DNA from: Paenibacillus sp. BIHB 4019
GTDB lineage: Bacteria; Bacillota; Bacilli; Paenibacillales; Paenibacillaceae
Direction: 5' to 3'
DNA: 64,000 nt
NCBI RefSeq assembly: GCF_002741035.1
Contig: NZ_CP016808.1
Span: 3,892,501-3,956,500, forward strand
Under the pieces are notes generated by a model. That model was not told where the DNA came from. It saw only the letters and a list, made by a program, of their open reading frames with translations, and made no database searches. How positions within the stretch are numbered: the stretch's first letter is position 1; each line of letters opens with the position of its first letter. This document shows positions 114 to 18,878 of the stretch, piece by piece. Made by a program: the position numbers and the translations under genes.

Positions 114-131
114 GAATGGGAGGAATCCATG

Positions 132-1532
132 ATGAAGCTGGTATTATTGTCCGGAGGTTCAGGCAAGCGTCTATGGCCGTTATCGAATGATGCGAGATCG
201 AAGCAATTTCTGAAGGTGCTGGAAAATGAGAACCAGGAAATGGTTTCCATGGTGCAGCGTGTATGGGGACAAATTAATGAAAATGGCTTGGGCGATTCCA
301 GTTATATTGCGACGAGCCAGGCCCAAATCGAAATGATGCAGACCCAAATTTCACTGGACGTTCCGCTCATTATCGAGCCGGATCGGCGGGATACATTCGC
401 GGCGATAGCGCTGGCCGCCACCTATCTATATTCCCATGCGGGAGTAGGGCTGGATGAGGCAGTGGCGATTTTGCCCGTTGATCCCTATGTGGAAAGCCAT
501 TTTTTTGAAGCGGTAAAGCAACTGGAGGAGGTTCTGAACCGCTCGGATGCCGAGATTGCGCTCATTGGCGTGAAACCAACGTATCCGTCGTCCAAATACG
601 GCTATATTATACCGGAAAAGGCTGCTTCAACAGCAGCGGGTACGGCGATGCCAAGCAAGGCAGACGGTGAATATGTTGCGGTCAGCCACTTCCGGGAAAA
701 ACCGACGGAGGAAATCGCTGAGCGGCTTATTGCCGACAATGCCTTCTGGAATTGTGGCGTTTTTGCCTTCAAGCTGGGTTATGTGATTGAGCTGCTGGCG
801 AGCAGAGGGCTGCCGATTCAATATGAGGAGCTTGCGAAGCAATACCAGCTGCTGCCGAAAATCAGCTTTGATTATGAAGTAGTCGAGAAGGCGTCGAGCA
901 TCGTCGTTCTGCCTTATGAGGGCTACTGGAAAGACCTTGGCACGTGGAATACGCTGACCGAAGAAATGCAGAACAAGCAAATAGGCAGAGGCATTATCAG
1001 CGAGGATTGCATTAACACGCATCTGATTAATGAAATCGATATCCCCGTTTCCATTCTCGGCTTGTCAAATGTTGTAGTCGCGGTGAGTCCCGATGGCATA
1101 TTGGTGACCGATAAAAGCGCGAGTCCGCGCATTAAAGATTTTATCAGCTCCGACCAGGGGCCGATGTATATCGAGCGCCAATGGGGCTGGATCAGAGTGC
1201 TTGACGACCGCACTTATGAGGATGGCCGCTGTGTATCTACGAAGCGCGTAGGCATTCAGCTCGGCAAAAACCTCAGCTATCGCCTGCATTCGGCGCGCGA
1301 GGAAGTGTGGACCATCGTCAAAGGCAGCGGCGAGTTTATTCAAAATGGCAATTTTATGCGCGTCGGTGCGGGCAATGTGCTGCATATTCCGATGAAGATG
1401 CTGCACAGCATCCGTGCATTGACGGAGCTTGAGATTATAGTCGTGCAAAGCGGCATGGCTGAGGAGCGCAATCAGGTTGTGGAAATTTATCATACCTGGG
1501 ACGAAGTGTCCGAGCATTGCATTAAGGTATAA
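132..1532 (+). CDS. manC: mannose-1-phosphate guanylyltransferase with cupin domain
   Basis: Makes GDP-mannose from mannose-1-phosphate and GTP for cell-surface polysaccharide. The N-terminal nucleotidyltransferase domain shows the signature LSGGSGKRLWPLS near residues 6-18, then SKYGYI, FREKP and FWNCGVFAF blocks. The last ~110 residues form a cupin domain (SYRLHSAREEVWTIVKGSG), as in AlgA/ManC proteins. Two ATGs stand in tandem at 129 and 132; the second has the better distance from GGGAGGA at 118-124. Length of 466 residues is normal for the family. It is followed after 2 bp by a glycosyltransferase gene, so the two are probably translationally coupled. Whether the cupin half also has phosphomannose isomerase activity cannot be told from sequence. 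Confidence 0.93.
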   Translation: MKLVLLSGGSGKRLWPLSNDARSKQFLKVLENENQEMVSMVQRVWGQINENGLGDSSYIATSQAQIEMMQTQISLDVPLIIEPDRRDTFAAIALAATYLYSHAGVGLDEAVAILPVDPYVESHFFEAVKQLEEVLNRSDAEIALIGVKPTYPSSKYGYIIPEKAASTAAGTAMPSKADGEYVAVSHFREKPTEEIAERLIADNAFWNCGVFAFKLGYVIELLASRGLPIQYEELAKQYQLLPKISFDYEVVEKASSIVVLPYEGYWKDLGTWNTLTEEMQNKQIGRGIISEDCINTHLINEIDIPVSILGLSNVVVAVSPDGILVTDKSASPRIKDFISSDQGPMYIERQWGWIRVLDDRTYEDGRCVSTKRVGIQLGKNLSYRLHSAREEVWTIVKGSGEFIQNGNFMRVGAGNVLHIPMKMLHSIRALTELEIIVVQSGMAEERNQVVEIYHTWDEVSEHCIKV

Positions 1533-1534
1533 CC

Positions 1535-2725
1535 ATGCCTGGCGCTCGCGGCACGAACGGCCGTTTAACAACGATTGGCTATTATATTTCGGATTATGGC
1601 TATGGCCACGCAACGCGCAGCATTGCGCTTATTCGAACGCTGCTGCTTTATTCGCCGCGGCGTTACCGGCTCATAATCTGCTCGGGCAAAACGCTTTCCT
1701 TTATTCAGGCTTCATTAGCGGAATACAGCGCTGAATATAGCCCGGAACGGATAGAGTTCCGCAGCTGTTCATCGGATCTTGGCTATGTGCTTGGCGGAGG
1801 AACAGGCTCGGTTGAGCCTGATCAGGAAAGGTTCAAGCTAGGTTATGAGCAATATATGGCTGGGTTCTCAGCTGAGGTAAGGCGAGAAGCCGATTTTATG
1901 ATGAGTGAGCGGCTGGATATGGTCATTTCGGATATTTCTCCGATTCCGATTGCTGCAGCCTCGCTTGCAGGAGTGAAATCGGTGGGCATATCCAACTTCA
2001 CCTGGCATACCGCATATGCGGCTTTTGTGGAGCGGGAGCAGTTGGCGCCGCTGCGCCAGGCGTATGAACAGCTGGACTATTTTATTCCGCTTGCCGGATC
2101 GGGTACTGAGGAACGGAAATGGGCAGCGGGTGGCGGGCCGGAGGCAGGCTTTTATTGCCGAACGCCGCAAGCGGCTGAGGTGCAGCGGATCGTGCGGGAG
2201 CTGAATCCGGACGGCGGCAAAACGATCGTTTATTTTGCCCTAGGCATGGGAATAGAGACAGAAGCGCTGGACTCGCTTTCTCTGTGGAACGATCAGTCCT
2301 ATGTATTTATCGTATCGGAAAATATGCGGGTGAATGGGCCGAATATTTTCCGAATTCCGCAAGGCTACACCGAATCGCAAAATTACGCGGCGGCGGCGGA
2401 TCTCATCATTTCGAAGCCAGGCTGGGGTGTAGTCGGAGAGGCGGTCTCGCTAGGGAAGCCATTGATTGTGCTGGCCAGGACATCCATGACGGAGGATCGG
2501 AATACGATTCTAGCATTGCAGGGCAAGCATCCGCATATGCTGGTAACTTGGCAGGCACTAAGAGAGCTGAGCCTACAGCAAAGCTTATCGCAGCTAACAA
2601 TGGAAGGATGGAGCCGTGGCGCTTCTATCGCCATGAATGAGCGGTGTAAATACCAGATTGTTCAATGGATTGAGCAAATTGCCGATGAAACGAATGCCGA
2701 TCGTACCTATCGCACCTCGGTTTAG
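1535..2725 (+). CDS. glycosyltransferase of the GT-B fold (GT28/MurG-like)
   Basis: The N-terminus (GYYISDYGYGHATRSIALIRTLL region) carries the GHATR loop seen in MurG-type transferases and in the N-terminal half of bacterial/plant arabinokinase-like proteins. The C-terminal half holds LIISKPGWGVVGEAVSLGKPLIVL, the typical GT28 donor-binding loop (GG/GWG plus E after the loop). No membrane segment or signal peptide is seen, so it should act in the cytoplasm on a lipid- or sugar-linked acceptor. The start ATG lies 2 bp after the manC stop with no clear ribosome binding site, which indicates coupling. Donor and acceptor are unknown; GDP-mannose or UDP-glucuronate are plausible from neighbours only. 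Confidence 0.75.
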   Translation: MPGARGTNGRLTTIGYYISDYGYGHATRSIALIRTLLLYSPRRYRLIICSGKTLSFIQASLAEYSAEYSPERIEFRSCSSDLGYVLGGGTGSVEPDQERFKLGYEQYMAGFSAEVRREADFMMSERLDMVISDISPIPIAAASLAGVKSVGISNFTWHTAYAAFVEREQLAPLRQAYEQLDYFIPLAGSGTEERKWAAGGGPEAGFYCRTPQAAEVQRIVRELNPDGGKTIVYFALGMGIETEALDSLSLWNDQSYVFIVSENMRVNGPNIFRIPQGYTESQNYAAAADLIISKPGWGVVGEAVSLGKPLIVLARTSMTEDRNTILALQGKHPHMLVTWQALRELSLQQSLSQLTMEGWSRGASIAMNERCKYQIVQWIEQIADETNADRTYRTSV

Positions 2726-2790
2726 CATTTAGTATATAAAGCAGCAGCCCGATCAGGCGTCGAGGCTGCAAATGGAGAGGAGTGGGCAGC

Positions 2791-4128
2791 ATGAAGCTTG
2801 CTGTAATTGGAACGGGTTATGTAGGTTTAGTATCGGGCGTATGCTTCTCGGAACTGGGCAACGATGTCATCTGCGTTGACCACCTGAAGGAGAAGGTTGC
2901 CTTGTTGAATAAAGGGGAGGTGCCGATTTATGAGCCGGGCTTGAAAGAGCTCATAGCGAGCAATAAATCGGCGGGACGCTTGCAATTTACGACGGATTTG
3001 CCAGAAGCGGTGAGGAAATCCGACATTATTATTATTGCGGTAGGGACGCCATCGCTCCCAAGCGGCAAAGCGAATTTGAACTACATTGAGCAGGCTGCCC
3101 GCGAAATCGGCCTGGCGATGAATGGCTTTAAAATTATTGCGACCAAAAGCACGGTGCCAGTCGGCACGAATGAGCATATTCAAACGATTATAGCGAGCCA
3201 GACGGCTTTTCCGTTCGAGGTCGCGTCCGTCCCTGAATTTCTCCGGGAAGGCACGGCGGTTCAAGATACGCTGCACCCGGACCGCATTGTCATTGGCACA
3301 TCAGGGGAGACGGCACGCAAGTATTTAACAGAACTGCATAGGCCGCTCACCGAGCACATTATGAGCACCGATATTCGCAGCGCCGAAATGATTAAATATG
3401 CCTCCAATGCTTTCCTCGCTGCCAAAATTTCCTTCATTAATGAAATTGCCAACATTTGCGAGAAGGTGGGCGCCGATGTGACCGAGGTAGCGGAAGGAAT
3501 GGGTTATGATCAGCGAATTGGTTCTTCATTCTTGAAAGCCGGAATAGGCTACGGGGGTTCCTGTTTCCCTAAGGATACGCAGGCGCTTATTCAAATTGCC
3601 GGACAAATGGATTATGACTTTAAGCTGCTTAAATCGGTCGTAGATGTGAATCGCGACCAGCGCTTTAACGTCATTCGCAAGCTGGAAGCCTCGCTTGGCG
3701 ATTTGGCGGGCCGCACCGTTGCGATTTGGGGCTTGGCATTCAAGCCGGAAACGGATGATGTGCGCGATGCCCCAGCCTTTGAAATTATTGATGCGCTGGT
3801 AAAGCGAGGCGCAAATGTCAAAGCCTACGATCCGATAGCGACGGCTAATTTTCGCCAACAATTTGGCGAATCGGGCGTTGTTTATTGCGCTGAGCCGGAA
3901 GAAGCGGCGATTCAGGCGGATGCGCTGTGTATTTTGACCGAATGGAAGGAATTTCGCGACATTAAACCGCTAACTATCCAAGCCTGGCTGAGAACGCCTA
4001 ATCTCATTGATGGGCGCAACATTTATAGTGAGCATGAACTAGCCAATACGCAGCTCATTTATTATTCGGTGGGCCGCCCCAATATGAACCATGGAGTAAA
4101 AGAACAAAAACCATTATTGTCGCTGTGA
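2791..4128 (+). CDS. ugd: UDP-glucose 6-dehydrogenase
   Basis: Oxidises UDP-glucose to UDP-glucuronate using two NAD+. The N-terminal Rossmann motif GTGYVGLVSG is at the very start. The central block FINEIANICEKVGAD and the active-site block GIGYGGSCFPKDTQAL contain the catalytic Cys. A C-terminal UDP-binding domain (WGLAFKPETDDVRDAP) follows. I chose ATG 2791 because GGAGAGG at 2774-2780 is about 10 bp upstream; the GTG at 2782 is too close to it. Length of 445 residues is normal. It probably closes the polysaccharide gene set, since the next gene has its own promoter. Confidence 0.95.
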   Translation: MKLAVIGTGYVGLVSGVCFSELGNDVICVDHLKEKVALLNKGEVPIYEPGLKELIASNKSAGRLQFTTDLPEAVRKSDIIIIAVGTPSLPSGKANLNYIEQAAREIGLAMNGFKIIATKSTVPVGTNEHIQTIIASQTAFPFEVASVPEFLREGTAVQDTLHPDRIVIGTSGETARKYLTELHRPLTEHIMSTDIRSAEMIKYASNAFLAAKISFINEIANICEKVGADVTEVAEGMGYDQRIGSSFLKAGIGYGGSCFPKDTQALIQIAGQMDYDFKLLKSVVDVNRDQRFNVIRKLEASLGDLAGRTVAIWGLAFKPETDDVRDAPAFEIIDALVKRGANVKAYDPIATANFRQQFGESGVVYCAEPEEAAIQADALCILTEWKEFRDIKPLTIQAWLRTPNLIDGRNIYSEHELANTQLIYYSVGRPNMNHGVKEQKPLLSL

Positions 4129-4242: not shown

Positions 4243-6198
4243 ATGAGCGCAATCGCCGCTATTTATCAGAAGGATTCCGAAGCTCCCGTTTCCGTAGAAG
4301 CGGGGTTGCGCCTAATGCAAGCCTTGCAAAAATATCCAGCTGATGCCGTCGATACTTGGCATGACGGCCGCGTTTTCCTAGGCTGCCATGCCCAGTGGAT
4401 TACGCCTGAATCGGTCGAACAGCCGCAGCCCTTTCACTCAGCTGGGCTGGGGCTAACGATTACGGCTGACGCTATGATCGATAATCGTCCATTTCTGTGG
4501 GAGCAGCTGCTTATCGACCGCGAGCGGCGAGCCAGCATGCCGGATAGCGAGCTGATTATGCTGGCCTATGCCAAATGGGGAGAGGAAGCGCCGCGTTATT
4601 TAATAGGCGACTATGCCTTCATCATTTGGGATCAGCGTAAATCCCAGCTGTTCGGTGCGACCGATCTTTTCGGCAGCCGTACGCTGTATAGCCACTCTGA
4701 TGCTCAGCAAAGCTCCTTTTGCACGACCATTGCTCCGCTGCTTGCCGCCCATCATGTGGAGAAAAAGCTGAATGAAAGCTGGCTCGCCGATTATTTGGCA
4801 GTTGCTATTGTCCATGAGTCGAGCGACCTCTTCGCAACGCCCTATGAGCATATTCGCCAAGTGCCGCCGGGGCATGCTTTTCGCCTAAAGGACGGACGGC
4901 TCGATTTTTGGCAGCACAGCAAGGTCGAGCTCCCGGAGCAGCTGCGGTTGAAGCGGCGTGAGGAGTATACGGAGGCTTTCCAGGAGGTTTTTCAGGAAGC
5001 GGTCAGTGCCCGGATGAGGACGTTTCGGAAGGTAGGCGCGACGCTTAGCGGCGGCCTCGATTCCGGCTCGGTCGTCAGCTTCGCGGCAAAAACGCTGCAA
5101 AAGCAGCAAAAGCAGCTGCATACCTTCAGTTATGTGCCGGAGCCGGATTTTCAGGATTGGACGTCCAGGCGGCATATGGCAGACGAACGTCCCTTTATCC
5201 AGGAAACCGTAGGGTTTGTCGGCAATATTGCCGATCAATATTTGGATATGCAGGGCCGCAGTCCATTGTCGGAAGCGGATGAATGGCTGGAAATGCTGGA
5301 AATTCCCTTTAAATTTGTAGAAAATTCATTTTGGATTAAAGGGGTTTACGAACAGTCGCATCAGCAGGGAATGGGCATTTTGCTCACGGGAGCAATGGGG
5401 AACCATTCGATCTCGTGGGGACCTGCCATCGATTATTATTCCTTGCTACTTAAGCGGCTGCAATGGCTGCGGCTATACCGGGAAGTGACGATGTTCGGCA
5501 AGCGCAAGGCAGTCGGGCGCAAACGGATTATGTATTATGTTGGAAAAAATGCTTTTCCAAAGCTATTTCCCCAAGAGCAGGAGCAAGGGCATCAGGAGAT
5601 GCCGCTCATGATCAATCCGGCTTTTGCCAAGCGGATGAACGTCTTTGCCAGATTGAAGGAGCGGCAGGCAGGAGCTGGCAGCGTTTTTGAAAAGGATGCG
5701 ATTAAAGCGCAGCCAGGGCCTTTTCAGGATATGGCGATGACCAATATGAGCGGTACGCAGCGCACGAAGCTATCGCTTAACTACGCGCTGTGGGAACGGG
5801 ACCCGACCAGCGATCCGCGGGTTGTGAAGTTTTGCTTGTCTGTTCCGATTGAGCAATTCGTTCATGATGGCTATGACCGTGCTTTAATCCGCGAGTCTAC
5901 GGCGAATTATTTGCCTGATCAAATTCGGTTAAACCAGCGGGTGCGAGGCATTCAAGCGGCAGATTGGGTTCATCGAATGACGCCGGTATGGCCTGCTTTT
6001 GTAGAGGAACTGATGCAATATTGCAAGGATCCGTATCTTGCGCAGTTTTTCAATGTAGAGCAGATGAGGGCTTCGCTGGAGCAGGTGGGCTTAGTGCCTA
6101 AGCCGGAATACGCGGTTGATCTGAACAGCCGTTATTTATTGCATTGCCTCGTAGCCTGTCGATTTGTCCGGCAGTTCAATTTGAAAGGAGGTGAATAA
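4243..6198 (+). CDS. lasso-peptide macrolactam synthetase (asparagine-synthetase-like, protein C)
   Basis: Closes the lasso ring: it activates an Asp/Glu side chain of the core peptide with ATP and joins it to the core N-terminus. The protein has the two-domain build of asparagine synthase B. The N-terminal class II amidotransferase domain starts MSAIAAIY and lacks the Cys2 needed for glutaminase activity, as known for lasso cyclases. The synthetase domain carries the PP-loop SGGLDS at residues 269-274. At 651 residues it has the usual length. AAGAGG at 4231-4236 lies 7 bp before the ATG. The stop is 2 bp before the precursor gene. The gene is the first of seven in one direction. Confidence 0.92.
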   Translation: MSAIAAIYQKDSEAPVSVEAGLRLMQALQKYPADAVDTWHDGRVFLGCHAQWITPESVEQPQPFHSAGLGLTITADAMIDNRPFLWEQLLIDRERRASMPDSELIMLAYAKWGEEAPRYLIGDYAFIIWDQRKSQLFGATDLFGSRTLYSHSDAQQSSFCTTIAPLLAAHHVEKKLNESWLADYLAVAIVHESSDLFATPYEHIRQVPPGHAFRLKDGRLDFWQHSKVELPEQLRLKRREEYTEAFQEVFQEAVSARMRTFRKVGATLSGGLDSGSVVSFAAKTLQKQQKQLHTFSYVPEPDFQDWTSRRHMADERPFIQETVGFVGNIADQYLDMQGRSPLSEADEWLEMLEIPFKFVENSFWIKGVYEQSHQQGMGILLTGAMGNHSISWGPAIDYYSLLLKRLQWLRLYREVTMFGKRKAVGRKRIMYYVGKNAFPKLFPQEQEQGHQEMPLMINPAFAKRMNVFARLKERQAGAGSVFEKDAIKAQPGPFQDMAMTNMSGTQRTKLSLNYALWERDPTSDPRVVKFCLSVPIEQFVHDGYDRALIRESTANYLPDQIRLNQRVRGIQAADWVHRMTPVWPAFVEELMQYCKDPYLAQFFNVEQMRASLEQVGLVPKPEYAVDLNSRYLLHCLVACRFVRQFNLKGGE

Positions 6199-6200
6199 AC

Positions 6201-6365
6201 ATGGAAAAACAACAATGGCAAGCTCCGGTTCTTGAAACGCTGCAAGTAAGCGAGACGATGGCTGGCATAGGTACACGTTACATTGATTTTGTAAAAGCGG
6301 GGGACTTTGACGTTACTGATGACCCAACTCCGTACCCTATCGATCCAGGCATTTCCTTTTCCTAG
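6201..6365 (+). CDS. lasso-peptide precursor (paeninodin-like, protein A)
   Basis: A 54-residue peptide starting at ATG 6201, 10 bp after the strong site AAAGGAGGTG (6184-6193 region). The leader of 20 residues has a W6-Q-A-P9 motif, like the YxxP recognition motif read by the RRE protein, and ends in T19-M20. Thr at the penultimate leader position is the known cleavage and recognition mark. The core would start at A21 and run AGIGTRYID, so that core residue 9 is Asp: an Ala1-Asp9 ring, the same ring size and pattern that I recall for paeninodin (AGPGTSTPD). The rest of the core is a 25-residue acidic tail with several Asp and Pro and ends in ISFS, giving a C-terminal Ser as in tail-phosphorylated lasso peptides. 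A 34-residue core is long for the class. Identity rests on the gene context and motifs, which agree fully. Confidence 0.9.
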   Translation: MEKQQWQAPVLETLQVSETMAGIGTRYIDFVKAGDFDVTDDPTPYPIDPGISFS

Positions 6366-6398
6366 AAATAAATCCATTATACTTATGCAGTAAAAGTG

Positions 6399-6450
6399 AT
6401 CAACAAGGTCCTTATACAGCAGAGCATCATTGTACAAGGACTTTGTTGAT
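6399..6450 (+). terminator. hairpin after the precursor gene (partial terminator or RNA stabiliser)
   Basis: A 19-bp stem pairs 6399-6417 (ATCAACAAGGTCCTTATAC) with 6432-6450, with one mismatch and one G-U pair and a 14-nt loop. It is followed by TTTTGTTC. It sits between the precursor and the kinase gene, the usual place for an attenuator that keeps the precursor mRNA more abundant than the enzyme mRNAs. The short T run suggests incomplete termination. Confidence 0.7.
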
Positions 6451-6541
6451 TTTGTTCAAAGGATAGGAGAGTGTAGGTTTCACCTTGTTTTTGATTGATG
6501 GCTTGAAGCAACGCGATTTTATTCATATAAGGGTGAACGCG

Positions 6542-7492
6542 ATGATATTAACGGAGAAAACAGCAATCTACGACGCTTTCGGCCTGCGAATCAGGAGTGA
6601 AATCGAGCTTCCTGAGCTGCTTGCGGCGGCAAATTCGGAAGCGTTTTCAGATGTTGAAATAGAGCTGGCTAAGCCAGAATTTACGTGGCCGATTTGGGAT
6701 CAAACGCAGGATCATTATGCTGTTCACGGCGCAAAATTGTTTTTTTATATTCACGAGGTCGCAAGCTTCTGCATTCAAGAGGGCAAACGGATTATTGTGG
6801 CGCCATGCGAAAACATGGATGAGGGCAGGCTTCGGCTTTACCTGCTCGGAACATGCATAGGAGCACTGCTCCTGCAGAGAAAGCAACTGCCGCTGCATGG
6901 GAGTGCCGTAGCCATAGACGGCAAGGCCTATGCATTCGTAGGAGACTCGGGGGCAGGAAAATCGACACTGGCCGCAGCTTTTATAGACCGGGGTTATCCA
7001 TTGCTAAGCGATGATGTAATTGCCTTAAAGGAACCGGAGGCTGGCGCACATGGCGCGGCCATAGTCATGCCCTCCTATCCGCAGCAAAAGCTGTGGCAGC
7101 AAAGTGTCGAGCAGCTGGGAAGAACGGGCCAGCCTTACAAGCCGCTTGCCTATTCCGTATCCAAATTCGCTGTTCCGTTATCTGCCAGCTTCCTATCCTC
7201 TCCACTTCCACTCGCCGCCGTATTTGAGCTTTCGCGCACAGAAGCAAATGCGGTATCGCTATCACAGCTGCATTCGTTAGCGAAGCTGCCTGTATTGCAA
7301 AACCACACCTTCCGGCATTTTCTAATCGCGCCTTTAAAGCTTCAAAATTGGCATTTTTCTGCCACAGTCCGGCTTGCGGCAAGCGTGCAGGCTTATCAAT
7401 TGCAGCGTCCCATAGAAGGTGCATTCTCCGCTTATGAAATGGTTGATCTAATCCTAGCAGCGACTCAGAAAGGACGTGAGGCAAATGTCTAA
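6542..7492 (+). CDS. HPr-kinase-like lasso-peptide tail kinase (protein K)
   Basis: Predicted to phosphorylate the C-terminal Ser of the lasso precursor, as reported for the homologue of the paeninodin cluster. The family is related to HPr serine kinase. Visible motifs are LPLHGSAVAIDG around residue 120, the Walker A loop GDSGAGKS at 134-141, and LLSDDVIAL shortly after. The start ATG 6542 follows AAGGGTGA; upstream in-frame TTG codons lack a good ribosome binding site. Length is 316 residues. The end overlaps the next gene by 8 bp. Substrate assignment is by family and context; the precursor here does end in Ser. Confidence 0.85.
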   Translation: MILTEKTAIYDAFGLRIRSEIELPELLAAANSEAFSDVEIELAKPEFTWPIWDQTQDHYAVHGAKLFFYIHEVASFCIQEGKRIIVAPCENMDEGRLRLYLLGTCIGALLLQRKQLPLHGSAVAIDGKAYAFVGDSGAGKSTLAAAFIDRGYPLLSDDVIALKEPEAGAHGAAIVMPSYPQQKLWQQSVEQLGRTGQPYKPLAYSVSKFAVPLSASFLSSPLPLAAVFELSRTEANAVSLSQLHSLAKLPVLQNHTFRHFLIAPLKLQNWHFSATVRLAASVQAYQLQRPIEGAFSAYEMVDLILAATQKGREANV

Positions 7493-7826
7493 ACAGACTA
7501 AACCGTTTCTGCAGCCTGAACAAAGGATTCAGCGGGCAGAAGGCCATTTGGCTGCCGATATGGATGGAGACAAAGTGCTGCTAAGCCTGTCTTCGGGCAA
7601 ATATTATAACATGGGCAAGCTGGGCGGCATCATTTGGGAACGGACGGTTTCGCCCGTGACACGGCGCGACATTGTGGACCAATTGCTCAAAGAGTATGAA
7701 GTAGAGCCAGCGGTATGCGACCAGCAGGTGGCAGACTTTTTACAGGACCTGTATGCGGAAGGGCTGCTTGAGCCTGTCTCGAATGCAGGCGCGCAGGATG
7801 GCGGAACAGAAGATACGGCGGGTTAG
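7485..7826 (+). CDS. PqqD-like RiPP recognition element (lasso protein B1)
   Basis: A 113-residue protein with the PqqD-type winged-helix pattern: a beta region with AADMDGDKVLLSLSSGKYYNMGKLGGIIWE, followed by helices ending in VADFLQDLYAEGLL. In lasso pathways this protein binds the precursor leader and brings it to the leader peptidase. The ATG at 7485 overlaps the kinase end and is preceded by AGGACGTGAGG; an in-frame GTG at 7476 is too close to that site. The last ~20 residues are acidic and Gly-rich and probably disordered. Confidence 0.88.
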   Translation: MSKQTKPFLQPEQRIQRAEGHLAADMDGDKVLLSLSSGKYYNMGKLGGIIWERTVSPVTRRDIVDQLLKEYEVEPAVCDQQVADFLQDLYAEGLLEPVSNAGAQDGGTEDTAG

Positions 7827-7859: not shown

Positions 7860-8330
7860 TTGCTTAAAAAATGGAGCCATTTCATCGCGCTGCCGCCTCG
7901 CAGCAAGTTGCTTCTGTTCGAAGCCTATACGCTGCTCGCCTGGGCACGCCTTCTCAAGCTGATTCCTTTCGCTAAAGTTGCCCCTACGCTAGGTGTTCCG
8001 ATGAAGGAGACGCCCTATGAACGGGTTGCGGAGCATGAGCAGATGCTTGGTGAGGTGTCGAAAGCGATACGGCAGATGAGCCGTTACACTTGGTGGGAAA
8101 GCGAGTGTCTCGTTAAGGGAATCGCCGCGATGAAGCTGCTGAAACGCAGAAACATAGCGAGCACGCTCTATTTGGGCACCGCCAAGGATGCATCTGGCAA
8201 AATGATTGCCCATGCTTGGCTTCGCAGCGGCCCCTACTACATAACGGGCGTGGAGGAAATGGGACGTTTCACCGTCGTTGGATTGTTCGGTAATCAGATG
8301 AAGCGGAAGAAGGAGCATCGCTATGGATAA
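7860..8330 (+). CDS. transglutaminase-like leader peptidase (lasso protein B2)
   Basis: Cuts the leader from the lasso precursor. The 156-residue protein has the Transglut_core3-type pattern: C83 in WESECLVKGIAAMKLL and H118 in IAHAWLRSG are the likely catalytic Cys and His. I could not place the third catalytic residue with confidence. The start is TTG 7860, with AAGGGCGG upstream at a rather long spacing, so the exact start is less sure. It overlaps the next gene by 8 bp. B1 and B2 are separate proteins here, as usual in Firmicutes. Confidence 0.86.
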   Translation: MLKKWSHFIALPPRSKLLLFEAYTLLAWARLLKLIPFAKVAPTLGVPMKETPYERVAEHEQMLGEVSKAIRQMSRYTWWESECLVKGIAAMKLLKRRNIASTLYLGTAKDASGKMIAHAWLRSGPYYITGVEEMGRFTVVGLFGNQMKRKKEHRYG

Positions 8331-9519
8331 AACGTATGAATGGGAAGTGGCCAACCTTCCGCTTGAATTGCAATTTATGCTCGATTGCCTGAAGCCGGAT
8401 GCCGATCCGGCAATTATTGGCCGCCGCTGGGCAGGCAGCAGGCTGAACGGGGAGAAGATTATCGACTTGGCGCGGCATCACCGCTTATATCCAAGCCTCT
8501 ATATAAAACTGAAGCAGCTTGCGAAGCCGGAGCTGCCGAAGTCGGTGCTGCTGACGCTCCAGCAGGATTATTACGCCAATACGCTGATGATGCTGAGGCT
8601 CAGCGCCGAGATGAAGCGAGTGGTAGCGGCTTTGGCAGATCGCGGCATCCGCTCCTTGCAATTGAAAGGGCCCGTTATTGCTCATGAGCTGTACGGCGAT
8701 ATTTCCCAGCGCACAAGCAAGGACCTGGATATTTTGGTTCCAATAGAGGATGTTGACCGGGCCGAGGCGGTGCTCGAAGAGCTTGGTTATTATGATCGTG
8801 ACCCGGCTCCGCGTTTGTTTAATGATTTGAAGTGGAAAACGCATCATAGCTGCTTCGAGCATACGGTTAATCAGACGCAAATTGAGCTGCACTGGCGACT
8901 CAGCCCTGATGCGGTGAAGGAAGTGTCCTTCGAGCAGCTATGGGCACAGCGCAGAATCTATGAGCAGACAGGTAGCCCGATTCCCTATTTGGGGCCGGAG
9001 CATCTGTTTCATTATCTCGTCAGCCATGGCGCCAGACATGGCTGGTTCCGGCTGCGCTGGCTGCATGATATTGCCCAGCTTGCTTCTGCCTGCGAGGATG
9101 GCGGCGATTCGCTGATGGAGGATACCCGTAAAAACGGAGGGGCGGCGGCTGTAGGGCAGGCGCTTATTTTGGCGCGGGAGCTGTTTGGGGTGAAGCCTCC
9201 CCAAGAGCTGCTGCCGTTGGCCGACAGCCCGCTTGCGCATAGGCTCGTCCGCTGCATTTTTCCATTTATTCAGGAGACCGTTACGATCAGCCCGATTCCA
9301 GAGGAGAAAAAGATGGCGCTGCTTTATAAGCGTTATACGTATATGCTGCTGACAAGCCGGGAGAAGCTGACCCACTTCATTGGCAAGCTATATCCGAGTG
9401 CCTGGGATGCACAGACGTTGCCTTTGCCTAAGGGACTGCATTTTCTTTATTTTCCGCTGCGGCCGTTTCTGTATTTTTATCGAAGGCTCAAGCAGCCTCG
9501 CAAAAGGGTGAGTATATGA
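8323..9519 (+). CDS. nucleotidyltransferase-family protein of the lasso operon (protein N)
   Basis: A 398-residue protein of the NTP_transf_5-like family. The core motif is the short stretch from QLKGPVIAHELYG to SKDLDILVPIEDVDRAEAVLEELGY, where the DLDILV aspartates match the metal-binding pair of nucleotidyltransferase folds. Homologues occur with the tail kinase in Bacillus and Paenibacillus lasso clusters. From what I recall of the pseudomycoidin work, such a protein adds a sugar to the phosphorylated tail. By analogy this gene would act after protein K. It overlaps the genes on both sides (8 bp and 4 bp), so it belongs to the operon. Confidence 0.8.
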   Translation: MDKTYEWEVANLPLELQFMLDCLKPDADPAIIGRRWAGSRLNGEKIIDLARHHRLYPSLYIKLKQLAKPELPKSVLLTLQQDYYANTLMMLRLSAEMKRVVAALADRGIRSLQLKGPVIAHELYGDISQRTSKDLDILVPIEDVDRAEAVLEELGYYDRDPAPRLFNDLKWKTHHSCFEHTVNQTQIELHWRLSPDAVKEVSFEQLWAQRRIYEQTGSPIPYLGPEHLFHYLVSHGARHGWFRLRWLHDIAQLASACEDGGDSLMEDTRKNGGAAAVGQALILARELFGVKPPQELLPLADSPLAHRLVRCIFPFIQETVTISPIPEEKKMALLYKRYTYMLLTSREKLTHFIGKLYPSAWDAQTLPLPKGLHFLYFPLRPFLYFYRRLKQPRKRVSI

Positions 9520-11342
9520 AACCGATTATGCTCTACATGAAAAAGCTGCATCAGTTTGCAGGGAAAAAGCTGTACCTGAACATGCTGGGCATTATGATCG
9601 TCAGCTCGCTTGAGGGCGTAGGGCTGCTCATCTTAATACCGCTGCTGGGCATCATCGGTTTAATTAATGTTCAAAGCGTAAACCTGCCAGTCGTACCGCA
9701 AGTCAGCCACTGGCTTGGCGAGCTGCCGCAGGAGCTGCTGCTGGTAGCTGTTCTGGCTCTCTTCATGGGCATAAACGTCGGGCAGGGCCTGCTGCAAAGA
9801 CAGCTGACGAATCAGGGCTTTGCCCTGCTTCAAAGCTTTGTAACGAAATTGCGGATGGATATTTATCAGGCGCTGCTGCAATCGAACTGGGCTTTTTTTC
9901 TCGGCAAACGCAAGTCGGACTTCAATCATATTTTGTCTTCCGAGCTTTCCCGGGTTAATCAGGGGATGCAGCTCTCGCTGCGTTTGGTTACGACGGGTAT
10001 TTTTACAATTGTGCAAATCGCTCTGGCGTTTTATTTGTCGTACCAGCTAACGCTGCTTATTTTAATTTGCGGAGGCCTGCTCAGCTTGTTCTCACGTAAA
10101 TATACACGAGGGGCAAGGTCGCTTGGCACCCGATTGACTGAGCTGTCGCAGAGCTATGTGGCGGGCATAACGGACCATTTCAATGGCATTAAGGAGATCA
10201 AAAGCAATCGGCTGGAGGAAAGCCATTTGTCCTGGTTCAGCAAGCTGACGCAGCAAATGGAGCACAATAATGTGCAGTTTGTGAAGCTGCAATCCAATAG
10301 CCAGCTCATCTTTAAAAGTATTTCAGCATTGATGATTGCGGGCTGCGTATTTTTATCGGTGCAGGTTCTGCAGGTTGGGGTAGCCCAGCTCACATTAATT
10401 GTGCTGATTTTTACAAGGCTGTGGCCAAAGCTGACGCTCATTCAAGCCTCTATGGAGCAAATCGTGCTGACGCTCCCGGCGTTCAAGAGCTTGAATGACT
10501 TGATGGAGGAATGTGGCGTTGCTGAGGAGCTGCAGCTGAATGAGCCTGTTGCGCGGACAGAACGTACAGAGCGGACAGAGCCTGATGCGCTGAAGCTTGC
10601 GCATGAGCTGGTCTGCCAAGATGTGTATTATCGCTACCGGGAGCAGGATAAGACGTATGCGCTGAAGCATATTAATTTGCGTATTCCAGCGAACAGCATG
10701 ACGGCTATCGTCGGCAAGTCTGGGGCGGGAAAAAGCACGCTAATCGATACGTTGATCGGGCTGATCGTACCCCAGCATGGAGCGGTGCTGCTTGACGGTG
10801 CCCCGCTGGACGACAGCAATCGCTTTGCTTACCGCAGTGCGGTCAGCTATGTCTCGCAGGACCCGTTTCTTTTTAATGCCAGCATTCGTGAAAATTTAAA
10901 GCTCGTATTGCCGGAGGCAACGGAGGAGCAATTGTGGGAGGCGCTCGCTTTTTCGGCGTCTGATGCCTTCGTTCGCGCGCTGCCGCGGGGATTGGACACG
11001 ATCGTGGGTGATCGCGGAGTACGGCTGTCTGGCGGGGAACGGCAGCGCATCGTATTGGCGCGGGCGATGCTCAGGAACCCATCGATCCTCGTACTGGATG
11101 AGGCGACCAGCTCGCTCGACAGCGAAAATGAGCTGAAAATTCAGCAGGCGCTTGAGCAGCTGAAGGGCAAATTAACGATTATTGTCATTGCCCACCGTCT
11201 GTCGACGATTCGTGACGCCGACCAGGTTATCGTTTTGGAAGAGGGTAGAATCATCCAGCAAGGCGGCTATAATCAGCTGTATCGCGAGTCCAAGGGGACG
11301 TTCAGCAAGCTGCTGGAGTATCAAGCGGGCGGGCCGGGTTGA
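9516..11342 (+). CDS. ABC exporter for the mature lasso peptide (protein D)
   Basis: A 608-residue half-transporter with the membrane domain fused to the ATPase, so it should work as a homodimer. The first ~310 residues hold about six hydrophobic helices. The ATPase has Walker A GKSGAGKST at about 400-408, Q-loop YVSQDPF, signature LSGGERQR and Walker B ILVLDEATS. A short linker before the ATPase has a small repeat, ARTERTERTE. No N-terminal C39 peptidase domain is present, as expected since B2 removes the leader. In lasso systems this exporter also gives self-immunity. It is the last gene of the operon. Confidence 0.92.
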   Translation: MKPIMLYMKKLHQFAGKKLYLNMLGIMIVSSLEGVGLLILIPLLGIIGLINVQSVNLPVVPQVSHWLGELPQELLLVAVLALFMGINVGQGLLQRQLTNQGFALLQSFVTKLRMDIYQALLQSNWAFFLGKRKSDFNHILSSELSRVNQGMQLSLRLVTTGIFTIVQIALAFYLSYQLTLLILICGGLLSLFSRKYTRGARSLGTRLTELSQSYVAGITDHFNGIKEIKSNRLEESHLSWFSKLTQQMEHNNVQFVKLQSNSQLIFKSISALMIAGCVFLSVQVLQVGVAQLTLIVLIFTRLWPKLTLIQASMEQIVLTLPAFKSLNDLMEECGVAEELQLNEPVARTERTERTEPDALKLAHELVCQDVYYRYREQDKTYALKHINLRIPANSMTAIVGKSGAGKSTLIDTLIGLIVPQHGAVLLDGAPLDDSNRFAYRSAVSYVSQDPFLFNASIRENLKLVLPEATEEQLWEALAFSASDAFVRALPRGLDTIVGDRGVRLSGGERQRIVLARAMLRNPSILVLDEATSSLDSENELKIQQALEQLKGKLTIIVIAHRLSTIRDADQVIVLEEGRIIQQGGYNQLYRESKGTFSKLLEYQAGGPG

Positions 11343-11483: not shown

Positions 11484-13979
11484 TTAAGGACATACGATCA
11501 GATTGACAAACTGCGGTGGACTGAGTGTTATGGCAGCGCCGGATGTGGAAGCGGTAAATACGCTGTCAAACGTAATTCGATTGGTTTTGTAATCGACGGC
11601 TAGCACATATTTGACGCTGTCTCCTACGAGTAAATATTGACCCCGGCCTATATTGGCGACGCTGGTAACGTTTGTCGCAATGGCGGAACCATTAGTTACC
11701 GTGCAGGTAAGCGGTTTAGTTGGCGCTTTGCCATACATGCCAGGCTGTACGCAAATTTTTTCATACACCTGTCCACTGACAATTGCCGTGCTTTGAATAC
11801 GGTCATGCTTATGCCAGATTCGGGCTGTGTAGGTGGCGGAAGGAACCGCAGCGGCAAATTGATTCGAAAGCAGCGGCCTGCTGTTGATACGATCCCCTTC
11901 CCATACCGCGCAGCGCCCATGAAAATAAAAATCATTTCCCGTCGTCCCGGTTGTTAGATGAGGCGTGCCGACATCGACAAAATCGTTGTTTCGTACAATA
12001 ATGGTACCGCCTGCAGCAAGGCCCATGTCCTCGCCCGTATATTTTTTTCCGCTTTTAAGCGGGATATAGTCGCTGGCGAGGTTGCCGGGACGAAGCTCGA
12101 TGCCTTTGGTGCATTGGTTAAAATGGTTGTCTTCAACCGTCGTATAAGGGGAGTTGCGCACGGACAGGCCAAGCGTACAATTATGCAGCCGATTGGAACG
12201 AATCAAGGTGCCGCTTACCCGGAATGTATCCAGCGTAATGGCTTCACCGGTGCAATTTTTAATGATATTTCCTTCAATGGAGGATTTCTCTACCTCGGTA
12301 TGCTCTTTTGGGCTGCCTGCCCACAAAATCCCCGTTTGAAAATAATCGATTCGGTTGCCGCGAATATCAGCATTCAGCAGGGATTCACTATTATCGACGA
12401 TAATCGCAGGGCCGGGCGCAAGATTTGGAAACTTTACTTTTTCCCGGATAATATCATTGTTGACGACACGGCAGTTCGGGATTTTGATATGAATGGCTCC
12501 GTCAATCGTATGATTGTTTCTTCCAGGATTCACAATGCGATTGTTGAAAATATCAATGCCAACCTGATCCGAAGGCAATGGCGAATGCGGCTCCGTTTTG
12601 AAAGGATTCACCCTCGTCACGATAGCTCCGACTGAAGATCCCGCTCCATCTGCATTGCCTCCCGGCTTTTGCGCCGCATATTCAATATAGTTGTTGGATA
12701 CGACGATGCTGTTTGTGCCTCGAATATAAATGGCCTGCTCCCATGATGCGTAGAGGCGATTCAGGTCAATTTGAATATTTCCTCTATACGTTTCCGCCGT
12801 CAGCGGATCGGCATAGCTCCCCCTATACACCTGTATGGAGCATTGCGCACCCAAAATAATATTGCGTGAAATGATACACGGATTCTCGTCATACGTTTGT
12901 GCAAGCGCATCAATGCCGAGATCGAGTCCCATGACCTCCATGTAATTGTCGGATATCATGAAATTGCTGGCTTTGCGGGGTTCAGGCGAAGCTCCTAAGT
13001 GCCCGAAAACAATGGCTCCCGTGTAAGCATACGTTCCAAAAGGCTGGTAAGTCCCGTCAAGCATGGATGCAATAGTTTTTCCAGTATCGGAATAAAAGGA
13101 ATTGTCTTTAATGACAAAATTGCTGCAGCCGCGATAAATAATGCCCTGGGAAAATTTTCTGAATACGCAGTCTTTGACATTCCAGTCATGGGAGTGATAA
13201 GCATCAATACAGGAGTTATTTTTGGAAGGGGAGAAGCCTGTTTTAATATCTTTAAGGAGTCTGGTACCGTGGTCGATGGCTTCAAATTCCATGCCTCTAA
13301 TGGACCAGGTTTTCGTGTTTTCTGGGGCGTATACAAGAGTAAAGCCCATGCCACTGGGATTGGCATTGTCCATTCTCCGAAGCTTAGCCTTATAGCCGAA
13401 CCAGTGGGAGTTTGATTTTTTGACAATGGAGGCGCTGATGGCGAACTCTCCAGCGAAAACGACGGTAGCCGTGCTGGTGCTTGCTATATCCTCCGCATTT
13501 TGAATGGCCAAATAGTCATTGGTTACGTTATCAGCTTTCGCGCCAAACCATTGGGGATAAATCGTGTCAATTTTTATATAGCCAGCAATCTTTCCGCCCA
13601 ATGTCAGATCGAAAATCCAATCGAAAGCGTCCGCATCGACAGGGCCATTTACCGTAAGCGTTATATTTTTTTTAGGACGAAAGCGGGCATTTTGATCGAA
13701 GACTAGCCTTTTAGTGGCGGGTATCGACACGTTGGAGTGGAGCGCATATATTCCTTTTGGGACTATGATGGTATCGGAATCCTCCGCAATAGCGCTGAGA
13801 AGAGCGGCTGAGCTATCCGTTGCTCCTGTAGGGTCAGCATCTTTCCAAAGGAGATTCGTGCCGCGCTTTGCAAATTCCGCATCAATCGATTCAAAGTTCA
13901 CATTCATCTCTGTACGCGCCACGCCATCTGTACCAATGCAATCCGATAAACTCAAATTAGGTGTTTTATTCGTAGTCAC
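11484..13979 (-). CDS. right-handed beta-helix (pectate-lyase-like) repeat protein
   Basis: An 831-residue protein. After a ~70-residue N-terminal region it has a pectate_lyase_3-type start (LLWKDADPTGATDSSAALLSAIAE, then IIVPKGIYAL) and then many turns of an Asn-rich parallel beta-helix (SRNIILGAQ, VSNNYIEYA, IFNNRIVNPG, VEDNHFNQC). Such folds occur in polysaccharide lyases and in phage tailspikes. The N-terminal block NVNFESIDAEF has a tailspike-like character. There is no signal peptide, so export route and substrate are unknown. The start is GTG 13979, preceded by AAAGGAGGCG. It stands alone, convergent to the lasso operon and divergent from the pilus operon. GC content looks like the rest of the chromosome. 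Confidence 0.75.
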   Translation of the reverse strand: MTTNKTPNLSLSDCIGTDGVARTEMNVNFESIDAEFAKRGTNLLWKDADPTGATDSSAALLSAIAEDSDTIIVPKGIYALHSNVSIPATKRLVFDQNARFRPKKNITLTVNGPVDADAFDWIFDLTLGGKIAGYIKIDTIYPQWFGAKADNVTNDYLAIQNAEDIASTSTATVVFAGEFAISASIVKKSNSHWFGYKAKLRRMDNANPSGMGFTLVYAPENTKTWSIRGMEFEAIDHGTRLLKDIKTGFSPSKNNSCIDAYHSHDWNVKDCVFRKFSQGIIYRGCSNFVIKDNSFYSDTGKTIASMLDGTYQPFGTYAYTGAIVFGHLGASPEPRKASNFMISDNYMEVMGLDLGIDALAQTYDENPCIISRNIILGAQCSIQVYRGSYADPLTAETYRGNIQIDLNRLYASWEQAIYIRGTNSIVVSNNYIEYAAQKPGGNADGAGSSVGAIVTRVNPFKTEPHSPLPSDQVGIDIFNNRIVNPGRNNHTIDGAIHIKIPNCRVVNNDIIREKVKFPNLAPGPAIIVDNSESLLNADIRGNRIDYFQTGILWAGSPKEHTEVEKSSIEGNIIKNCTGEAITLDTFRVSGTLIRSNRLHNCTLGLSVRNSPYTTVEDNHFNQCTKGIELRPGNLASDYIPLKSGKKYTGEDMGLAAGGTIIVRNNDFVDVGTPHLTTGTTGNDFYFHGRCAVWEGDRINSRPLLSNQFAAAVPSATYTARIWHKHDRIQSTAIVSGQVYEKICVQPGMYGKAPTKPLTCTVTNGSAIATNVTSVANIGRGQYLLVGDSVKYVLAVDYKTNRITFDSVFTASTSGAAITLSPPQFVNLIVCP

Positions 13980-15535: not shown

Positions 15536-16793
15536 GCTGGTGCTTGTATTAAGAAACCAGATTAGGTCGCAGCTTGATTTCAGCGGTGCTGTAACGGATG
15601 AAGAGCTGACGCGAAGCGTGGAACAGACGGTATTTAACTATTGCAGCAGCGGACATCCGCTTACAGCGGCGGAGAAAGTCCAGTTGGTGCAGAGACTGTT
15701 TCATTCCTTTCGGGGCTTGGACATATTGCAGCCGCTGATGGATGATCCGACAGTTACTGAAATTATGATTAACCATCACGGCGAAATTTTTATTGAACGA
15801 AGCGGAACGATGACGCAGCTGCCAGCTGCCTTTGAAAGCAAAGAGCGGTTGGAGGACTTGATTCAGGCTGTCGTTGCAGGTGTCAATCGTGTTGTAAACG
15901 AGTCTTCGCCCATCGTGGATGCCCGTCTCAAGGATGGCTCTCGCGTTCATGTTGTGCTGCCACCAGTAGCTTTGCGCGGGCCAGCGATGACGATTCGCAA
16001 ATTTCCTGAGCGCCCGATGACAATGGAGCTGCTTGTTGCGGCGGGAGCTTTAACCGCAGAAGCAGCAAGCTTCCTGCAGCAGCTGACCGCAGCGCAATAC
16101 AATATTTTTATTAGCGGAGGGACAGGGACGGGCAAGACGACCTTTCTGAATGCGTTGTCGCAGTTCATTCCTGCTGATGAGCGAGTTGTAACGATTGAAG
16201 ATTCAGCTGAGCTGCAAATTCGCAGCGTTGCCAATCTGGTGTCGCTGGAGACGCGCAATGCCAACACCGAGGGCAAAGGTGAAATTACGGTTCGCGATCT
16301 CATTCGCGCATCGCTGCGGATGCGTCCGAATCGAATCATCGTTGGCGAGGTGCGCGGAGCGGAAACGCTGGATATGCTGCAAGCGATGAATACCGGGCAC
16401 TCGGGTATGTCAACAGGTCACAGCAACGGTGCGCGCGACATGATGGCAAGGCTCGAGACGATGGCTCTAGGGGCAGCTGATTTGCCCGTTCAAGTCATTC
16501 GGAAGCAAATCGTTTCAGCTCTGGATATTGTCATTCATCTATCGCGGTTTCGCGACCGTTCGCGGCGTGTAACGGAAATAGGCGAAATTGCCGGCATAGA
16601 TGGCGGGGAAATCGAGATTCGCCCCTTGTTCCGTTTTGAGGAGGAGGGCGAGAAGGATGGCAAGGTGCTAGGAGCTTTAAAGCGTACCGTTCATTCACTC
16701 CTTCACCGGGACAAGCTGCAAATGGCAGGTTTATCACTGGAGGGGGACCGTTATGGAGATACCGGGGAATGCCAGAAATGCGAGGAAAGCTGA
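15522..16793 (+). CDS. tadA: Tad pilus motor ATPase TadA/CpaF
   Basis: Secretion-type hexameric ATPase that powers Flp pilus assembly. Walker A GGTGTGKT is at residues 199-206. It is followed by the Asp box VVTIEDSAELQI, Walker B-like RIIVGEVRGAETLDMLQAMNTGHSG and the His box. The frame is open much further upstream (to 15135), but that part overlaps tadZ and is not family-like. TTG 15522 has GGGAGG 8 bp before it and gives a normal 423-residue CpaF. It overlaps tadZ by 14 bp and tadB by 41 bp. Confidence 0.9.
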   Translation: MLTDELVLVLRNQIRSQLDFSGAVTDEELTRSVEQTVFNYCSSGHPLTAAEKVQLVQRLFHSFRGLDILQPLMDDPTVTEIMINHHGEIFIERSGTMTQLPAAFESKERLEDLIQAVVAGVNRVVNESSPIVDARLKDGSRVHVVLPPVALRGPAMTIRKFPERPMTMELLVAAGALTAEAASFLQQLTAAQYNIFISGGTGTGKTTFLNALSQFIPADERVVTIEDSAELQIRSVANLVSLETRNANTEGKGEITVRDLIRASLRMRPNRIIVGEVRGAETLDMLQAMNTGHSGMSTGHSNGARDMMARLETMALGAADLPVQVIRKQIVSALDIVIHLSRFRDRSRRVTEIGEIAGIDGGEIEIRPLFRFEEEGEKDGKVLGALKRTVHSLLHRDKLQMAGLSLEGDRYGDTGECQKCEES

Positions 16794-17772
16794 GAAAGCC
16801 AAGAAAACGGAAAAAGCGGAAAAAGCGGAAAAAGCGGAAAGAGCGGAAAGAGCGGAAAGAGCGGAGAAAACAGAGAAAACGGAGAAAACAGGGAAAGCCA
16901 AGAATACAGGGAAGGTCGGGCAATCGCTGCTCACTAGAGTGCTTTTCTGGTGCGGGCTTGAGCTTCAAAGCGGCAAAGGTGAGGAAGGGAATGGGAGTAA
17001 TACGAGCTGGCAGCCAGCCAAGACCGGATATTTAACAAATTATGATAGGTATGTGCTGTCTTATCGCGAGTTCGCAGTGGCGGCAATTATCGGTTATGCA
17101 GCTTTTTTTATAGCATTGTATACGGTGTATCATTCTCTTCTTGTTTGCCTTTCCGCAGCTGGATTTGGATTTTGCGCACCACGTTATTACAAAGCTTCAT
17201 TAATTTCGCGACGCAAGGAGCGGCTGAAGCTGCAATTCAAGGAGGCGCTTTATTCGCTGACATCCTGTCTTGCAGCAGGAAGATCAGTGGAAAATGCTTT
17301 TATTGCCACGCTGGATGATTTAAAGCTGTTATATCCTGATCCAAGAACGGAGCTGCTGCTTGAGTTTCAAATCGTGAAGCACCGTCTTGAGCATGCGGAG
17401 CCGTTGGAGCAGGCACTGCGGAGTTTAGCGGTCCGCTCCCATGTAGAGGATATCGTACAGTTCGTTGATGTGTTTGCAGCTTGCAAGCGTTCGGGTGGCG
17501 ATTTGGTAGAGGTGATGAAGCGTACGGCGCAGACGATTGGCGAAAAACTGGAAATCCAGCAGGACATTATGGTGCTGCTGGCACAAAAACGCTTTGAGGC
17601 ACGCATTATGATGGCGATTCCCTTTATATTTCTTGGTTTTTTGAACCTAATGGCTCCAGATTATATGGCGCCTCTATATGGAGGCATGGGCTATCTGCTG
17701 CTGACGATTGGTCTTGGTGCATTGTTAGTATGCTTTTGGTTTATCCATAAAATAATGAGCATTCGAGTATAG
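16753..17772 (+). CDS. tadB: Tad pilus inner-membrane protein TadB (T2SF domain) with a Lys/Glu/Ala repeat
   Basis: A platform protein for pilus assembly. The last ~250 residues match the GspF/T2SF type, with hydrophobic segments near YREFAVAAIIGYAAFFIALYT and near the C-terminus (IMMAIPFIFLGFLNLMAPDYMAPLYGGMGYLLLTIGL). The first ~60 residues are unusual: an AEKAEKAERAER-type low-complexity tract, highly charged and probably a long helix facing the cytoplasm. The ATG at 16753 is preceded by GGAGGGGG. It overlaps tadA and is followed after 12 bp by tadC. Confidence 0.87.
   Translation: MEIPGNARNARKAEKAKKTEKAEKAEKAERAERAERAEKTEKTEKTGKAKNTGKVGQSLLTRVLFWCGLELQSGKGEEGNGSNTSWQPAKTGYLTNYDRYVLSYREFAVAAIIGYAAFFIALYTVYHSLLVCLSAAGFGFCAPRYYKASLISRRKERLKLQFKEALYSLTSCLAAGRSVENAFIATLDDLKLLYPDPRTELLLEFQIVKHRLEHAEPLEQALRSLAVRSHVEDIVQFVDVFAACKRSGGDLVEVMKRTAQTIGEKLEIQQDIMVLLAQKRFEARIMMAIPFIFLGFLNLMAPDYMAPLYGGMGYLLLTIGLGALLVCFWFIHKIMSIRV
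16785..16905 (+). repeat. 9-bp tandem repeat tract inside tadB
   Basis: About a dozen units of the type GCGGAAARA or near variants (AAAACGGAG) run without a break from about 16785 to 16905. Each unit codes for three residues (Lys/Arg-Ala/Thr-Glu). Slippage would change the protein by three residues at a time and keep the frame. The strand bias to purines is extreme here. Confidence 0.85.
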
Positions 17773-17784
17773 GAGCGGGCGCAA

Positions 17785-18651: not shown

Positions 18652-18689
18652 GCGTTATCGGGGCAATTGAAAATAGAGAGGAAGCTGAA

Positions 18690-18878
18690 ATGATGACAAC
18701 AGTAAAAAAAGCATGGAAACGATTCTGGAAATCAGAGAGCGGCTTAGGCACGCTGGAAATTATTTTAATTATTGCCGTCGTTATCATTATTGCATTGCTG
18801 TTCAAGGATTGGATTATAGAACTTATTGAGCGTTTAATGGGCAAGGCCGATGACCAAGCAGATAAAATTTTCTCTTAG
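18690..18878 (+). CDS. flp: Flp1-like pilin
   Basis: A 62-residue small pilin: a basic N-terminus, then SGLGTLEIILIIAVVIIIALLF, a hydrophobic helix with the G-x-x-T/F-L-E mark of a prepilin, then an amphipathic end. The prepilin peptidase encoded at 22837 would cut it before the hydrophobic helix. AGAGGAAG lies 5-6 bp before ATG 18690. The frame is open upstream to 18519 but that part overlaps tadC and is not coding. It overlaps the next gene by 29 bp. Confidence 0.85.
   Translation: MMTTVKKAWKRFWKSESGLGTLEIILIIAVVIIIALLFKDWIIELIERLMGKADDQADKIFS

Follow-up and report, generated by a model that had tools for sequence, protein, structure and literature searches.

The gene at positions 6201–6365 on the forward strand of the window, by which we mean the whole stretch of 64,000 nucleotides from Paenibacillus sp. 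BIHB 4019 that was analysed, is the precursor gene of a paeninodin-family lasso peptide and encodes a long representative of a known kind, not a new class. The initial annotation, made from the sequence alone, had placed here a 54-residue open reading frame between a lasso cyclase gene and a kinase gene, and this was confirmed by the sequence, the reading frames and a match to the curated family NF033524 (lasso_PadeA_fam; 49.5 bits against a cut-off of 27, E = 2.4e-13). The match spans precursor residues 3–31 (leader and ring), the 30-position model being silent on the tail. A Pfam scan of the precursor matched no family.

Gene A starts at ATG 6201, two bases past the cyclase stop codon, and ends with its own stop codon at 6363–6365. 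A strong ribosome-binding site was read from the sequence at 6186–6193 (AGGAGGTG), and its GGAGGTG (6187–6193) is identical in all three orthologues. The product consists of a 20-residue leader, MEKQQWQAPVLETLQVSETM (6201–6260), and a 34-residue core, AGIGTRYIDFVKAGDFDVTDDPTPYPIDPGISFS (6261–6362). Four features claimed for it at the outset were all found: a WxxP leader motif (W6-Q-A-P9), Thr at leader position -2 (T19), a core that opens AGIGTRYID and a C-terminal Ser (S34). The predicted acidic ring acceptor within core positions 7–9 is Asp9, the conservation of which points to a predicted macrolactam ring of core residues 1–9 (Ala1 to Asp9; 6261–6287). A paeninodin-type precursor with this nine-residue ring pattern and 25 residues beyond the ring is likewise supported by the profile and by comparison of cores. 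The family comparison further delimits a proline-rich tail extension, core residues 20–34 (DDPTPYPIDPGISFS, 6318–6362), which ends in the predicted phospho-acceptor Ser34.

Three more genomes have an orthologue of A in which the leader is unchanged and the core, also of 34 residues, has diverged somewhat. When 5.8 billion proteins were searched, in a mode confined to relatives with short exact words in common, a single relative was returned at E values up to 1, P0001 of Paenibacillus sp. KS-LC4, which resembles the window precursor in length (54 aa), sequence (87% identical) and NCBI name ('paeninodin family lasso peptide') and differs from it by seven residue changes, each within the core; the same search run with an alignment of five sequences returned five relatives. 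It is very improbable that the cluster is decaying and makes nothing, since all of its seven genes are open and the precursor is conserved in four genomes, the window gene differing from the most distant of the three orthologues by nine synonymous and seven non-synonymous codon changes, none of the seven in the leader.

The biosynthetic operon

Gene A belongs to an intact forward-strand operon with the order C-A-K-B1-B2-N-D. The asparagine-synthetase-like lasso cyclase C (4243–6198) matched Asn_synthase and GATase_7 above cut-off and scored 358 bits with the NCBI model lass_lactam_cya, below the model cut-off of 525; its motif SGGLDSG is invariant in 62 of 62 rows. The HprK-like tail kinase K (6542–7492) matched HprK-related profiles, every one of them under its cut-off. 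Its start was placed at ATG 6542 and not at TTG 6485 because the TTG is missing in two of the three orthologues and the ATG is present in all three. Tail kinases carry a His-Lys-Asp-Asp set (PMC9266682), to which we tentatively assign H119, K140, D157 and D158 of K, each invariant in 50 of 50 rows.

B1 (7476–7826) is a RiPP recognition element of the PqqD family (NF033536, 108 bits, cut-off 80) that aligns without gaps to chain B of PDB 9x90 (PbaB1; E = 2.9e-20). PMC13381572 names the PbaB1 residues that form the pocket for the leader Trp and Pro, and we transferred their numbers through this alignment. Nine of them are unchanged in B1 (Y39, I48, L65, Y69, V71, Q79, F83, L87 and L92) and three are changed (I44 to L, L41 to M and E75 to V); the pocket appears to be largely kept. 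The leader peptidase B2 (7860–8330; NF033537, 100 bits, cut-off 33) has C83 and H118 invariant in 44 of 44 rows, and is followed by the nucleotidyltransferase-like N (8323–9519; NTP_transf_5, PF14907, 195 bits) and the ABC exporter D (9516–11342; ABC_membrane and ABC_tran above cut-off). The initial annotation had allowed for a better-fitting precursor elsewhere in the genome, but profile searches of the whole 7.2-Mb genome gave one match each for the NF033524 precursor, PqqD/B1 and B2, with no second NF033524-family precursor beyond the window gene.

Part of this gene set is shared with the clusters of linear polyphosphorylated peptides (LPPs) of Bacillota, which contain K, the recognition element, N and D and adjoin capsule genes (PMC13381572), but a linear product of this kind is hardly credible for the window. 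By the same source, LPPs have YxxP leaders, a SipW-like peptidase and core clusters that are without a cyclase, whereas the window has a WxxP leader, a cyclase and B2 with kept motif residues, and no signal-peptidase type protein among its seven cluster genes. LPP identity was thus rejected on the leader motif and the enzymes.

Between A and K lies a predicted RNA hairpin with a 16-bp outer stem (6398–6451, forward strand), recognised by fold score and by comparison of the orthologues, in which the stem is mostly retained and the loop is variable. The whole A-K gap of the window folds at a z score of -3.3; among the A-K gaps that were folded z is below -2 in 35 of 44 and not so in the other nine, the 44 including one place twice (L067 = L171) and the near-copy L066. 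A terminator scan gave 13 candidates against 9.2 expected and does not list this hairpin, the inner loop of which is outside the model of the scan; a promoter scan was no better than shuffles (seven found, 7.4 expected). The hairpin is probably an attenuator or weak terminator, and as an attenuator it may keep precursor mRNA above enzyme mRNA, setting the ratio of precursor to enzyme.

Tail length and composition across the family

NF033524 was matched in 44 of the 51 genomes of the genus, and an alignment of the window's close group matched 215 of the 394 genomes of the family. For comparison we assembled 142 distinct Paenibacillaceae cores, 141 from the profile search and one (L189) added separately. 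Their sources were the DNA of all 80 listed genus matches (51 genomes; 65 loci, eight of which, L041, L058 and L060–L065, yielded no core by profile), 30 loci from the family search (394 genomes) among the matches listed, 71 loci for those listed family rows that came without a locus and had an open frame of at least 51 aa, and nine larger loci. One locus each from P. plantiphilus, P. eucommiae and P. algorifonticola completed the sample. Family rows shorter than 51 aa were left out, a frame of that size being too short for a 34-residue core preceded by at least 17 residues of leader. Core starts were placed two residues past a nearby Thr where there was one, so that the Thr count of the sample is partly built in and was not used.

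Core lengths run from 18 to 41 residues, with 112 of the 142 distinct cores at 22–26. At least 34 residues were found in 16 of the 142, from 16 genomes by our count, a ratio that is no frequency in a sample biased towards long frames; five of these have 34 residues, one 35, one 36, one 39, six 40 and two 41. The window core, described initially as unusually long, is so against the bulk of the family but is not unique, and the suggestion that 34 residues lie near the upper limit of the class fails, since nine of the 142 predicted cores have 39–41 residues and all five such precursors that were scanned pass NF033524. Other long precursors (P0004 of P. phyllosphaerae and those of L096, L105, L107, L118, L131, L137 and L165) are like the window's in having a paeninodin-type leader, Asp9 and a final Ser, with tails rich in Pro or Gly/Ser, and unlike it in having cores of 39–41 residues and belonging to other branches of the cyclase tree; P0004, L107, L118, L137 and L165 are the members of this group that were scanned. 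Altogether NF033524 was passed by nine of nine scanned relatives, seven with cores of 34–41 residues and two short.

Acidic residues at ring-acceptor positions are widespread: D or E occurs at positions 7–9 in 120 of the 142 distinct cores, and Asp9 itself in 118 of the 142 and in every one of the 16 long cores. Ser is the last residue of 138 of the 142 cores, among them all 16 long ones. What distinguishes the long ends is proline, which makes up 23% of the 16 long cores from residue 20 onward (final Ser excluded) compared with 1% of their residues 1–19 and 7% of cores under 34 residues, L118 being an exception with a Gly/Ser-rich end. The tail of the window peptide had also been called acidic; with six D against two K/R this is correct, but it is ordinary for the family, since D+E amounts to 16% of long cores from residue 20 onward and to 17% of the short cores.

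The relation of long to short cores can be followed in close relatives. P. plantiphilus, the cyclase of which is 51% identical to that of the window, has two precursors, EGKGTKIIDFVSVHDFDITS and EGTGTLYVDLVTPADFDVTNTPPPS, that share the window's body GxGTxxxDxVxxxDFDxT and have far shorter ends, one core stopping with Ser at residue 20 and the other having NTPPPS. Both lie in one cluster (L067, 11192–11308 and 11362–11496), and their cores, of 20 and 25 residues, start with Glu, not Ala. The sister cyclases of L176 and L178 are accompanied by cores that have a similar body and lengths of 34 and 26 residues. The relatives are built of a body of about 19 residues and a length-variable Pro-rich extension ending in Ser; in the window's group the body and the final Ser are constant, and the spacing between them varies, mostly by proline-rich sequence. 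Such a pattern fits a spacer that would bear the target Ser of the kinase, and makes removal of the tail as waste less likely.

The initial annotation had raised trimming of the tail as a possibility, and truncated lasso products in expression work have been ascribed to endogenous carboxypeptidases (review PMC13352647). Trimming during or after maturation would leave a mature lasso of fewer than 34 residues and make the extension a temporary handle for the kinase or the exporter, and core residues 31–32 are indeed variable among the orthologues (IS, VI and TS). Nevertheless, the final Ser is conserved and a scan of the seven cluster genes gave B2 as the sole peptidase, which argues against trimming, though only against trimming as a routine. 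Prolines and a phosphorylated end should, moreover, slow carboxypeptidases. We consider trimming unlikely, and take the full-length tail as the preferred reading.

Two further groups of paeninodin-type leaders were noted in the survey. In L028, L029, L031, L037, L044 and L057, WxxP leaders precede Gly-Ser repeat 'cores' (GSGSGSGS...FGS) with no acid at positions 7–9; the 5–8 kb pieces of L031, L037, L044 and L057 gave kinase and exporter matches and no cyclase or B2 match. The products of these six loci are perhaps linear phosphopeptides with lasso-type leaders. In L024, L026, L027, L043 and L045 the leaders precede four distinct cores that start DGDV or DEGD and have no final Ser, two of them ending in Trp/Pro-rich sequence.

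Cyclase phylogeny and comparison with characterised lasso peptides

The initial annotation had suggested that the window might represent a new branch. We built a tree of 58 cyclases in which the label 'core of at least 34 residues' (the window's length) was set on 15 rows before the tree was viewed. Left out were L171 (the same place as L067), the split cyclase of L197 and the cyclases without an assigned precursor (L041, L058, L060, L064 and L069); one L189 cyclase had its 41-residue core assigned by hand. The window cyclase and that of P. algorifonticola form a fully supported pair whose branch has a length of 0.72; the nearest other row is at a path distance of 1.18, and in this sense a deep branch of its own exists. 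Long tails, however, are scattered over the tree: the label needs five changes, at least three of them forced by well-supported branches, and the AU test rejects a tree with one clade of long tails (p = 5.7e-48). On these two results we discarded the idea that a long tail marks one branch; given this scatter, tail length does not define a branch. Some long-tail rows have long end branches, so that their exact places are unsure. The history of paeninodins is described as very patchy by Popov et al. (PMC13381572). Gains, losses and gene exchange of long tails appear indistinguishable on the present tree.

Paeninodin has a core of 23 residues with the same ring pattern, Ala1-Asp9, and the window's tail is longer than that of paeninodin by the Pro-rich extension. 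The two are also alike in belonging to the curated precursor family and in the WxxP leader, and paeninodin (PadeA, kinase PadeK, of Paenibacillus dendritiformis C454) has, like the window, a C-terminal Ser and a tail kinase (review PMC9266682); the leader W is nearly invariant in the paeninodin family (PMC13381572). Pandonodin, named as the longest-tailed lasso peptide in the review PMC13352647, shares an exceptionally long tail with the window peptide but is unlike it in having 33 residues in total, a tail of 18 residues and a tail-tail disulfide that places it in class IV (PMC13352647). The pandonodin cluster as described in PMC9266682 has the essential A-D genes only, whereas the window has a kinase gene and its precursor has no Cys. 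A mature product with all 34 core residues would exceed pandonodin by one residue. Set beside the characterised lasso peptides of these sources, the window peptide is at the upper end of the length range, yet it is one of several long-tailed paeninodins. A search of titles and abstract openings for long-tailed paeninodins found no title, which we do not take to mean that long tails are unpublished. Pseudomycoidin (PsmK, PsmN) has the same pair of K and N genes and bears phosphate and hexose on its C-terminal Ser (PMC9266682), modifications that the window peptide may share.

Genomic surroundings and predicted maturation

The lasso operon occupies the 3′ end of an exopolysaccharide locus (129–4128 of the window; 2802–15110 of L202). 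Immediately before the cluster, profile matches identify a ManC-like gene (129–1532), a glycosyltransferase-like gene (1535–2725) and a UDP-glucose dehydrogenase gene (2782–4128), all on the forward strand. Ten proteins scanned further upstream comprise a nucleotidyltransferase, a bacterial sugar transferase, an epimerase, a flippase-like, a Wzy-like and a hexapeptide protein, three group 1 glycosyltransferases and one without a match. Past the exporter, 11484–13979 on the reverse strand encodes a large right-handed beta-helix protein that is pectate-lyase-like, and 16753–22788 contains Tad-pilus-type genes (two T2SSF proteins and a TadE-like protein).

According to PMC13381572, paeninodin clusters are frequently found near capsule loci, and what paeninodins do is unknown. 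We compared 30 related loci of at least 13 kb with a cyclase, leaving out L067 and L069; several were cut by the ends of the fetched sequence. The order C-K-B1-B2-N-D was found in 18 of the 30, 17 of these with cyclases 44–53% identical to that of the window, and the other 12 have a different order or a gene without a match. A UDP-glucose dehydrogenase gene is within reach in 13 of the 30 and a ManC-like gene in 10; in L171, L177, L179, L181 and L182 these two genes are 66–77% identical to those of the window and the cyclases 47–51%.

The sequence itself supplies gene content and order, family membership, the kept motif residues and the body-plus-extension pattern, and with these the product is most probably a phosphorylated, possibly glycosylated lasso peptide with a nine-residue ring and a long spacer tail. 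In the maturation that we propose, B1 would grip the leader through the WxxP motif, K would phosphorylate the C-terminal Ser34, N may attach a sugar to the phosphate, B2 would cleave after Met20, C would close the Ala1-to-Asp9 ring around the chain, and D would export the finished peptide. The core body of about 19 residues would make the ring, loop and plug, while the comparison of cores suggests that the 15-residue proline-rich extension may be a stiff spacer that places the modified Ser far from the knot. The sub-threshold scores of the cyclase (lass_lactam_cya) and of the kinase (HprK profiles) count against this product. A paeninodin-like cluster gave no masses in its native host in the account of Popov et al. 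(PMC13381572); clusters of this type may accordingly be silent, or may make products with modifications that escape prediction.

A more speculative and quite improbable reading is that the Pro-rich extension joins or docks the phospho-sugar end to the exopolysaccharide made by the neighbouring genes, lasso peptides of this kind being decorations of a surface polymer and not free antibiotics; were it true, tail length would be matched to the polymer, not to whatever the knot targets. Returning to the spacer-tailed lasso peptide, its relatives combine a similar body with core lengths that range from 20 to 41 residues. Natural pairs among them, for example the two precursors of P. plantiphilus or those of L176 and L178, offer a way to study the function of a lasso tail, the distance from the knot at which a tail kinase still acts, and the reason why paeninodins often adjoin polysaccharide genes.
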